Below the pieces are notes generated by a model. It was not told where the DNA came from. It worked only from the letters and a program-made list of their open reading frames with translations, and made no database searches. A DNA stretch of 64,000 nucleotides, taken from Pseudomonas putida. GTDB lineage: Bacteria > Pseudomonadota > Gammaproteobacteria > Pseudomonadales > Pseudomonadaceae. Positions within the stretch are counted from its first letter, which is position 1, and each line of letters begins with the position of its first letter. Positions 32,735-48,719 of the stretch are shown here, in pieces. The stretch spans positions 930,001-994,000 of the forward strand of contig NZ_CP039371.1 of the NCBI RefSeq assembly GCF_005080685.1, in the 5' to 3' direction. Made by a program: the position numbers and the translations under genes.

Positions 32735-33038
32735 GTGATCCTCGCAAGGCTTCCTCAAAAAGGGAGAGTTTGCCATACCACCCGCATAGCTGACGCGCTA
32801 ACTGAAATCAAGCAAGCTTGAAAGGCCGTCCGTGCTGGGCATGTGGAATCGATGTAAGAATAAGAACAGGCCAGACGCAGCCTCGCGCGACTTGGAACTG
32901 CGACTAGCCTATTGAAAATCAGATTTCCCCACTTCCTTGTAGTCCATTTCCCAAAGATACTTCCCACACCTATTTTCCGTTGCGGTCCTACACACAAGCG
33001 TCCTAGTCTCGATTCGTCGCTGCAATCAGCGATCGGCT
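32735..33038. other. Gene-free stretch upstream of the DUF3077-like leader
   Basis: About 300 nt of mixed composition, AT-rich in the middle. The only open frames lack family resemblance and ribosome binding sites. I see no clear promoter. Confidence 0.4.
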
Positions 33039-33207
33039 TTGACAGGCCGCGAGGTATATAGGTATGCAGCGCCGTTTATGGCAGCTGTGCGTGCGGGCAC
33101 GCTTGCGTGCGCCGGTTCTTCCTATATCCGCCGGTCTGTCAACCCACGCACAGTTGCCACCCCTACGTTTGACAGCGACGCGGAGGCATCAAACCGGAGA
33201 TATAGGA
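33039..33207 (+). promoter_or_regulatory. Palindromic leader with three related segments ahead of a small gene
   Basis: Segment A (33039-33062) and segment C (33169-33206) both contain TTGACAG and end in ATATAGG just before an ATG. Segment B (33121-33142) is the near-complement of both. B pairs with A over most of its length and with the ACCGGAGATATAGG of C, which includes the GGAG ribosome binding site. A further stem joins GGCAGCTGTGCGTG (33080-33093) with CACGCACAGTTGCC (33145-33158). This is the layout of a leader with alternative pairings. Confidence 0.6.
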
Positions 33208-33450
33208 ATGTTGAAACTGGTTCCCGATCCACCTCAAAGCCCCAGCCCCCTGGAGGTCGCCTTCAAGATCGCCGCAGACCACAGCCTCTGCGCGGAAGGT
33301 GCCGCTCACCAGGCCGTCCTGCTGCAGTTCCACGCACCAGCCAAGCTGCTGACCATAACGTCAAAGCACGAGCCAGAAACCTTACGAAAGCCGGTCAACC
33401 CAGCGTTGCCACACATCCGGATTCCGGCGAATCGTCAAACGTTGCACTGA
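33208..33450 (+). CDS. Small DUF3077-like conserved Pseudomonas protein
   Basis: An 80-residue soluble protein starting MLKLVPDPPQSPSPLEVAF and ending RIPANRQTLH, matching a group of short paralogues that occur in several copies in P. putida. GGAG lies 8 nt before the ATG at 33208. An in-frame ATG at 33064 also has an SD-like GAGG, so a 128-residue form cannot be excluded, though it would read through the palindromic leader. The function is unknown. Confidence 0.6.
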   Translation: MLKLVPDPPQSPSPLEVAFKIAADHSLCAEGAAHQAVLLQFHAPAKLLTITSKHEPETLRKPVNPALPHIRIPANRQTLH

Positions 33451-33638
33451 GCCGAAGCCTGTTTTGTCTGGCAGGGCCTCTTCGCGGGCAAGCCCGCTCC
33501 TACAGGGTTTGGCGGCGGCTGTTGTCGTGCGGCGTTGAGCATGTGGGCACGGGGATCGCGTGACGACCAGCCCGGGCAATCCAATGGCTTCTACTCATCC
33601 GCATCGACACCAAGTTTCGCCTGGTCTGGCTCCAGTGC
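33451..33638. repeat. Single type A REP element in a gene-free gap
   Basis: The REP core CGCGGGCAAGCCCGCTCC lies at about 33484-33501. The rest of the gap up to the next leader has no supported gene. Confidence 0.7.
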
Positions 33639-33774: not shown

Positions 33775-34044
33775 ATGTCCACGGACGATAACGACAGCAA
33801 AACCACTGTCGGCAAGACCAGGTTTTACCAGGGCGAAGGCCACACCCAACCACTGTTCTGCGTCGAATCCGGCATTCCCTGCCAGCACGCGCATGAACAG
33901 GCGTCGGAATTGATGGGCTATGTGCGTGACTTGACCCTCAATGGCCTGATGGAGGAGGACTCGTCATCGCTCTGGGCAGCACACTATCTGAGCGCGTTGG
34001 CCAAGGCACTGATGGATGATGCCGAGTTGGGGATGATGCGCTAG
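33775..34044 (+). CDS. DUF3077 family protein
   Basis: An 89-residue protein; residues 14-85 (TRFYQGEGHTQPLFCVESGI, then HEQASELMGYVRDLTL) match the DUF3077 family of small helical proteins, which are multi-copy in P. putida and often found at variable loci. AGGGAG precedes ATG 33775 by 9 nt. It faces the convergent GST gene. Function unknown. Confidence 0.8.
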   Translation: MSTDDNDSKTTVGKTRFYQGEGHTQPLFCVESGIPCQHAHEQASELMGYVRDLTLNGLMEEDSSSLWAAHYLSALAKALMDDAELGMMR

Positions 34045-47975: not shown

Positions 47976-48719
47976 ATGAAAGTCCATTTCATCGTTCACG
48001 AAGCGTTCGAAGCACCTGGCGCCTATGAAACCTGGGTGCGCGAGCGCGGCTTCGAGGCCAGCTACTCCCGGGTCCATGCCCATGAGCCGCTGCCCGCAAA
48101 CGCCGATGCCATCGATTTACTGGTGGTGTTGGGCGGCCCGCAAGACCCGGCTACCACCCGCGAGCAATGCCCCCACTTCGATGCGGCAGCCGAGTGCCGG
48201 TTGATCAACCAGGCAATCGCCGCTGGCAAGGCTGTGGTGGGCGTCTGCCTTGGCTCGCAACTCATTGGCGAAGCGCTGGGTGCGCGCTTCGCGCACAGCC
48301 CGGAAAAGGAGATCGGCAAGTTTCCGATCAGCCTTACCGCTGCAGGCATGGCCAACGACAAGGTCGCGCATTTCGGCGATGTGCTGCAGGTGGGGCATTG
48401 GCACAACGACATGCCGGGGCTGACCCCTGAGGCCAAGGTGTTGGCCGTGAGCGAGGGCTGCCCGCGGCAGATCGTCGAATACGGCAACCTGGTGTACGGC
48501 TTCCAGTGCCACATGGAGTTCACCGCGCAAGTCGTCGAAGGTCTGATCGCGGCCTGCGAGCAGGAGTTGGTCACATTGACCGATCGGCGCTTCGTGCAAC
48601 AGGCCGAGGCGTTGCGAGCGCAAAGCTGGGATGAGATGAACCAGAAGCTGTTCGGGTTTCTCGACAAGCTGGTCGAGGCTTATCAGTCCCGCACCACGAC
48701 CGGCACCACGCGCACGTAA
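47976..48719 (+). CDS. Type 1 glutamine amidotransferase domain protein
   Basis: A 247-residue class I GATase-like protein. The catalytic triad is complete: C91 (GVCLGSQ), H179 and E181 (FQCHMEF). It could take ammonia or hydrolyse a gamma-glutamyl group, as PuuD does. Start ATG 47976, 20 nt after the preceding gene. The end overlaps the convergent transporter gene by 37 nt. Confidence 0.85.
   Translation: MKVHFIVHEAFEAPGAYETWVRERGFEASYSRVHAHEPLPANADAIDLLVVLGGPQDPATTREQCPHFDAAAECRLINQAIAAGKAVVGVCLGSQLIGEALGARFAHSPEKEIGKFPISLTAAGMANDKVAHFGDVLQVGHWHNDMPGLTPEAKVLAVSEGCPRQIVEYGNLVYGFQCHMEFTAQVVEGLIAACEQELVTLTDRRFVQQAEALRAQSWDEMNQKLFGFLDKLVEAYQSRTTTGTTRT

Follow-up and report, generated by a model that had tools for sequence, protein, structure and literature searches.

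Which element controls the small gene ORF1 on the Pseudomonas putida chromosome, and by what means, is the question raised by this locus. The window is the whole stretch of 64,000 nt that was analysed (GCF_005080685.1, NZ_CP039371.1, 930,001-994,000, + strand), and all coordinates refer to it. A sequence-only reading had described three interacting segments in front of ORF1: segment B could pair with segment A or with segment C, and the B-C pairing would cover the translation start. It assigned the leader to no recognised class, took the 80-residue gene for DUF3077-like, allowed for DNA operators instead, and proposed, as a test, to see whether A, B and C covary in homologues. We put the probability at roughly 0.87 that this leader forms a C4 antisense RNA module on the chromosome, silencing its own ORF1.

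Anatomy and family of the leader

The three segments are located as described. According to the complementarity scan, B is complementary to A (33039-33058 against 33123-33142, 75% over 20 nt), and to C in two stretches (33127-33142 against 33169-33184, 75% over 16 nt; 33119-33128 against 33199-33208, 10/10). TTGACAG is common to A and C, and ATATAGG precedes an ATG in both; in the search for direct repeats, these appear as TTTGACAG and ATATAGG(T/A)ATG, each present in both segments. A stem reported as 33080-33093 with 33145-33158 was found as 33079-33093 with 33145-33159 (14/15 pairs), and it encloses segment B.

The Rfam scan of the whole window gave two matches at this place, RF01695 (C4 antisense RNA, 72.8 bits, E = 2.8e-12) and RF03163 (c4-a1b1 motif, 52.0 bits, E = 2.9e-10). 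The features are as follows, and the names of the sites follow the usage for phage P1.

32917-33002, + strand: upstream conserved block, presumed promoter carrier; aligned in 15 loci of this genome, with similarity to paralogous and other-species loci starting nearby
33003-33053, + strand: c4-a1b1 motif, RF03163; 52.0 bits against a cut-off of 46.7
33039-33045, + strand: a1 (TTGACAG), within segment A; complement of a' at 33136-33142, identical to P1 a1 over 7 nt
33056-33062, + strand: b1 (ATATAGG), within segment A; complement of 33121-33127
33074-33164, + strand: putative C4 antisense RNA, RF01695; 72.8 bits against a cut-off of 45, full model 1-87
33079-33093, + strand: C4 closing stem, 5' arm; 14/15 pairs with 33145-33159
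33119-33128, + strand: b' in the C4 hairpin loop, within segment B; 10/10 complementary to 33199-33208
33136-33142, + strand: a' (CTGTCAA), within segment B; exact complement of a1 and a2
33145-33159, + strand: C4 closing stem, 3' arm; pairs with 33079-33093
33169-33175, + strand: a2 (TTGACAG), within segment C; exact complement of a', identical to P1 a2 over 7 nt
33199-33208, + strand: b2, within segment C; 10/10 with b', over AGGA and the A of ATG
33208-33450, + strand: ORF1, 80 codons (MLKLVPDPP...), presumed C4 target; 263 relatives by a profile of seven ORF1 proteins, dN/dS from paralogues
33775-34044, + strand: ORF2, 89-aa DUF3077 protein, perhaps controlled together with ORF1; PF11275, E = 2.9e-17

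By each sequence feature that could be tested, the leader qualifies as a C4 antisense RNA. Segment A corresponds to a1 and b1, segment B to b' and a', and segment C to a2 and b2 over the ORF1 start. The C4 fold is matched over the full model, the a1/b1 motif lies upstream with both sites complementary to a' and b', and at the ribosome site of the small ORF a2 pairs in 7/7 and b2 in 10/10 positions, reaching the A of ATG. The pairing of B with C over the translation start is thus borne out. The stem that had been said to cross the A-B and B-C pairings is the C4 closing stem, which sets B apart as a compact domain. As to the regulatory leader with alternative anti-SD pairing, the pairing stands, whereas the class that had gone unrecognised is C4, RF01695.

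As a positive control, the phage P1 record gave a C4 match at 48337-48422 (68.8 bits). The annotation of that record has the order a1, b1, c4, a2, b2, icd, ant1. Both a1 and a2 of P1 are TTGACAG, identical to the a sites of the window, and the b segments of P1 differ. The fold energy of the leader is ordinary (z = -1.30; equal folding in 23/200 shuffles), so that fold stability is weak as a proof of structure. Despite this, the E-values of RF01695 and RF03163 together with the 30 relatives in the same genome place the arrangement far beyond chance. Co-folding of C4 with its target gave a net gain of 0.0 kcal/mol in a model that leaves out loop-loop contacts, and was set aside as a proof of binding. 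No riboswitch is among the above-cut-off Rfam matches in the window; a sub-threshold xanthine riboswitch match (15.7 against 36 bits) lies elsewhere in the window on the other strand.

Upstream, the similarity to paralogous and other-species loci begins at about 32913-32939 (query 1314-1340), that is, 5' of segment A. In the TTGACAG class the block reads TGTAGg.CgTTTCCcAAAgATACT, as aligned in the 15 loci. The block varies with the class of the a site, and other classes show TATCCTAC or TAcCCTAC. No consensus sigma-70 site was found in the block 32917-33002, which may serve as a promoter or as the site of a regulator.

ORF1 showed no Pfam, NCBIfam or PHROG match at E <= 0.001. The DUF3077 domain assigned to it earlier belongs to the next gene, ORF2 (63.1 bits against 21), which starts 324 nt after the end of ORF1. 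With ORF1 lacking a family match and ORF2 being DUF3077, the icd/ant pair of a P1-type immI operon is absent by family assignment. As a single query, ORF1 of the window found itself alone in the protein collection, and two loci of 50% and 38% identity in the genome collection; the profile from seven ORF1 proteins found the 263 relatives. The structure model of ORF1 was too poor for use (pLDDT 64.0). The AlphaFold2 model of ORF2 is a confident helical hairpin (pLDDT 89.7), and it had no match in the PDB at E <= 0.001. ORF2 also matches phrog_36471 (E = 1.4e-45); by tblastn it is absent from all 50,697 phage records. Between the two genes, a palindromic stretch lies at 33476-33510, and pieces nearby recur across many genomes (query 1861-1918). 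This stretch looks like a Pseudomonas REP element.

Copies of the module and their presumed target genes

In its own genome (6.61 Mb), the window's C4 is one of at least 30 matches, all above the cut-off and dispersed over 0.37-6.47 Mb on one contig. The c4-a1b1 motif has 26 matches, 14 of them above its cut-off. The start pattern M-x-K-x-VPDPP, with at most one mismatch, occurs at 26 places (reversed control, 0), and 25 of these 26 are directly behind a C4. In 28/30 loci an ORF with VPDPP or a slightly altered motif starts 43-55 nt past the end of the C4 model; the exceptions are L010 and L025, and L025 has lost both a2 and the ORF1 start. The presence of an ORF after C4 is by itself weak evidence, as 821 of 4000 random positions in the window have an ATG ORF of at least 25 aa at equal distance. 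A DUF3077-type ORF, judged by sequence motif, follows ORF1 in 14/30 loci. Three modules (L025, L029 and L032) stand within 4 kb on one strand at G000:C1:1939766-1943703.

The ORF1 proteins of this genome share the VPDPP-type start and are otherwise diverse; eight of 28 are no longer than 43 aa. L024 and L028 are shortened to 34 and 27 aa with the VPDPP start kept, and L024 also keeps an -LLH end resembling that of full-length ORF1s, as if by an internal deletion. The dN/dS ratio (Nei-Gojobori) is 0.00-0.42 in 24/25 paralogue pairs and 0.65 in one, with some dS values near saturation. ORF1 is under purifying selection in most paralogue pairs. No DNA-binding domain was seen in ten ORF1-type proteins scanned against Pfam.

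Within the genus Pseudomonas, C4 was found above the cut-off in 274/298 genomes (best 14 candidates per genome). Deeper scoring of 38 genomes gave 33 with C4 above the cut-off, and from 0 to at least 42 matches per genome (median 14). As a limited number of candidates was scored per genome, all counts per genome are lower bounds. Outside the genus, 10/74 genomes of the order carry C4, with 1-6 matches each; in the draw from the class, which overlaps that from the order and is counted with the window's own genome aside, the figure is 17/273, again with 1-6 matches each. There was no C4 match in 14 control genomes. In one genome of the same class (G630, 1.5 Mb, at least six C4 matches in total), four same-strand matches follow in a row at G630:C9:1700-3092, about 350-600 nt apart, as a tandem array (part in L117).

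The whole 3.9-kb query is matched end to end in its own genome alone, and in pieces in other genomes. DNA similar to the leader occurs in one of the 50,697 phage records and in two plasmid records. A phage origin was not supported by similarity, with the leader in one phage and two plasmid records and ORF2 in no phage record. One plasmid match, NZ_CP043577.1:17886-18112 on a 19-kb P. putida plasmid, is 77% identical to the leader over 74% of the query, and no listed feature lies beneath it.

Targets were also assigned in two further complete genomes, G036 and G005. In G036, 40 of the 41 loci had a scannable ORF behind C4, and 31/40 of these ORFs are DUF6124, one is DUF3077, one is Bro-N, and seven have no family at E <= 0.001. 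Conversely, 33/38 DUF6124 genes in G036 and 26/30 in G005 lie at most 600 nt downstream of a same-strand C4. By eye, other Pseudomonas C4s precede ORFs of a 52-aa family or Bro/Ant-like ORFs. C4s before longer ORFs resembling Bro/Ant antirepressors were likewise noted by eye in L092, L093, L101, L103, L106 and L115 (Pseudomonas and other genera). From these longer ORFs behind some C4s, phage-type C4 units appear, as judged by eye, to coexist with the small-protein type.

Codes shared by each C4 and its target

Covariation was analysed in 84 Pseudomonas loci, namely the 30 of the window's genome and 54 from elsewhere, most of the latter being the top-scoring C4 of a separate genome; of the 55 available from elsewhere, L134 fell below the 3080-base minimum and was left out. 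The exact 7-nt complement of a' is present downstream (a2) in 81/84 loci, upstream (a1) in 81/84, and on both sides in 80. When each C4 was set against the targets of loci with another a', an exact complement occurred downstream in 6 and upstream in 8 of 6166 pairs. There are 21 forms of a', of which 19 have an exact partner. The exact a2 is missing in L025, L126 and L132; the latter two retain 6-nt matches, which may reflect a shift of register rather than a loss.

The b side gave the same picture. The mean energy of b' with its own b2 is -14.58 kcal/mol against -8.09 kcal/mol with the others (0/20000 permutations; 84 loci, kinship not removed), and with one locus per b' sequence (65 loci) the values are -14.48 and -8.10 kcal/mol. 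Ranked by b' energy, the own target comes first in 37/84 loci and within the best five in 70/84. On the upstream b1 side, 28 loci of the window's genome gave -11.85 kcal/mol for the own site against -6.85 kcal/mol for the others. Kinship alone would preserve sequence, but not the complementarity of two changing segments. The covariation of A, B and C that the sequence-only reading had named as its own test is thus seen in relatives, with distinct b' loops matched as well.

In the window's genome, G036 and G005, each C4 was compared with all targets of the same cell. From G036, 41 listed C4s were fetched; from G005, 39 of 42, three matches below the cut-off being left out. With a' defined by the longest match, of 6-9 nt, close to the end of C4, a procedure that favours finding one and for which a 7-nt chance match is expected in about 1% of loci, a match of at least 7 nt between a' and a2 was obtained in 40/41 loci of G036, 36/39 of G005 and 29/30 of the window's genome. 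The b' loops are distinct in 40/41, 38/39 and 29/29 loci, respectively. The mean b'-b2 energies, own against others, are -14.50 against -9.29 kcal/mol in G036, -13.27 against -9.25 kcal/mol in G005 and -16.11 against -10.07 kcal/mol in 29 loci of the window's genome (0/20000 permutations in each). The own target ranks first by b' energy in 20/41, 11/39 and 15/29 loci.

Possible cross-talk was defined by an exactly shared a site and a b pairing at most 2 kcal/mol from the cognate energy. It was found in 7/1640 ordered pairs in G036, 5/1482 in G005 and 35/812 in the window's genome. Many copies in this last genome have one a site in common. These values indicate that the predicted insulation between C4 modules is strong but incomplete, and weakest in the window's genome. 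With processing and repression taken over from P1, the C4 modules would be largely insulated, self-repressing units.

The paralogues L014 and L020 show how the codes differ between close copies. Their ORF1 sequences are 99% identical over 240 nt, and by global alignment b' is 65% and the b2 region 63% identical. The own pairings have -19.9 and -21.2 kcal/mol against -9.8 and -10.4 kcal/mol for the crossed ones. Followed in 50-column steps, this pair has an identity of 0.98 in the promoter block, drops to 0.58-0.86 between about a1 and b2, returns to 0.90 where ORF1 starts, and stays at 0.98-1.00 in the remainder of both genes. The pairs L018/L035 and L022/L027 dip in the same a1-b2 stretch, to 0.64-0.78 and 0.56-0.74. 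The a/b code thus diverges faster than the genes. The cause could be selection on the codes to differ, or equally a gene conversion that leaves them untouched.

Mechanism, alternatives and known systems

The C4 module reading is based on the above-cut-off matches to RF01695 and RF03163, the P1-like order of parts and a site, and the matched a/b codes; the purifying selection on ORF1 and the position of most DUF6124 genes behind a C4 also argue for it. One transcript would start 5' of a1, its promoter lying in the conserved block that begins near 32917. C4 would be excised from this transcript, probably by RNase P as in P1/P7. The free C4 would then pair through a' and b' with a2 and b2 of its own mRNA, and the pairing over b2 would block translation of ORF1 and perhaps expression of the DUF3077 gene too. 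In P1, transcription terminates prematurely in untranslated icd. The copies are numerous and their a/b codes differ, every code fitting the copy's own target, so that each would silence itself with limited silencing of the others. By analogy with P1 immunity, a copy that arrives in a host lacking the matching C4 would be expressed at first, and shut down as C4 accumulates. Against silencing by C4 stand the ordinary fold energy, the co-folding with no net gain, the first rank of the own target in no more than 37/84 loci, the 35/812 ordered pairs of the window's genome that could cross-talk, the missing a2 of L025, the short ORF1s (8/28), the lack of a consensus promoter, and the absence of the phage targets icd and ant.

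In the best of the alternatives, B is never released from the growing transcript and pairs now with A, now with C, depending on a ligand, a protein or the speed of transcription, and no free RNA is made. A, B and C would lie on one transcript, and the A-B and B-C pairings are mutually exclusive. Action in cis and action in trans both predict covariation of a and b, so the covariation observed fits this alternative equally. However, B is enclosed in a compact domain by the C4 closing stem, the window holds no riboswitch match at a family cut-off, and in P1/P7 the C4 RNA is processed and acts as a free molecule; for Acinetobacter baumannii, processing was inferred from read coverage in the part of PMC5320573 available to us. 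We consider such a switch improbable. ORF1 is more likely controlled by an excised RNA pairing with the mRNA it came from than by a ligand-driven switch in cis, although some part of the action may be in cis.

Still less probable is that the modules are decaying relics of phage immunity, multiplied and without present function. C4 is a phage element, and the short ORF1s (8/28) and the lost a2 site of L025 would be expected of relics. However, matching a1/a'/a2 sets are maintained through many forms, ORF1 keeps a low dN/dS in all but one of the paralogue pairs, C4 is present in most genomes of the genus, the second genome (G036) has DUF6124 targets in 31/40 cases and Bro-N in one, and leader-like DNA is found in a single phage record. 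In the last alternative, a repressor protein would bind A, B and C, which alternate in orientation. The 7-nt motifs are repeated direct and inverted, and a protein co-evolving with its sites could also keep them matched. But these sites are part of a stretch with a conserved stem that a covariance model matches, b2 coincides with the ribosome site as in P1, 21 a' forms and mostly distinct b' loops per cell would need equally many specificities, and the ten ORF1-type proteins showed no DNA-binding domain in Pfam, so that DNA operators are hardly credible and are not needed to explain the leader.

On the C4 module reading, the uncharacterised DUF6124 family becomes tied to one mode of control. 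The 30-42 antisense pairs per cell, with mostly distinct codes, are a natural library for the diversification of RNA-RNA specificity, and the code sets may be usable as orthogonal regulators. A wider proposal is speculative, and we regard it as rather unlikely. A chromosome would hold a repertoire of up to at least 42 C4 modules, with codes selected to diverge in the manner of incompatibility or immunity types. Every module would silence itself and incomers of the same code and be nearly blind to its neighbours. The set would act as a register of self and non-self for mobile modules or phages, and DUF6124/DUF3077 effectors would be released upon unmatched entry.

As for the literature, C4 antisense RNA is mentioned in passing in the accessible parts of PMC4666395, PMC11143913, PMC12189769 and PMC12696581. 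The search, which lay outside subscription papers, supplements and preprints, returned no description of Pseudomonas C4 sets, private targets or a DUF6124 link. It returned no paper for DUF6124, and for DUF3077 it returned one, PMC9630843.

The c4 and c4-a1b1 motifs are those given for Proteobacteria and phages by Weinberg et al. 2010 (PMC2864571), whereas the available part of that paper holds nothing on Pseudomonas copy number, private targets, DUF6124 or DUF3077. The Group 1 C4-like sRNAs of A. baumannii, according to the accessible portion of PMC5320573, are likewise many chromosomal C4-type RNAs per genome with a variable specificity segment. Their targets, phages or bacterial transcripts, are left open in that portion, whereas here each C4 precedes an ORF with a matching start region; such adjacent, covarying targets make the question testable by simple reporters. 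The same portion places b' at the ribosome site, in agreement with P1, and names a' as the variable specificity loop, whereas here b' is more variable.

In the case of P1/P7 immI, the order a1-b1-C4-a2-b2-small ORF and the C4 fold above the cut-off are the same as here. The P1 locus also shares the 7-nt a site TTGACAG, and ORF1, like icd with ant, has another gene behind it. According to the part of PMC5320573 at hand, C4 of P1/P7 is released by RNase P (cited there), and according to that of PMC8198154, C4 belongs to the immI region of P1, and ant is not fully repressed without it. In contrast to P1/P7 immI, the Pseudomonas modules are chromosomal, in about 30 copies here, and have another b code. 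In contrast to P1, ORF1 and ORF2 are not annotated as icd and ant, and ORF2 starts well past ORF1, while ant1 overlaps icd. Thus the setting is unlike that of P1: the modules are chromosomal and multiplied, their codes are mostly private, and their targets are uncharacterised small proteins.
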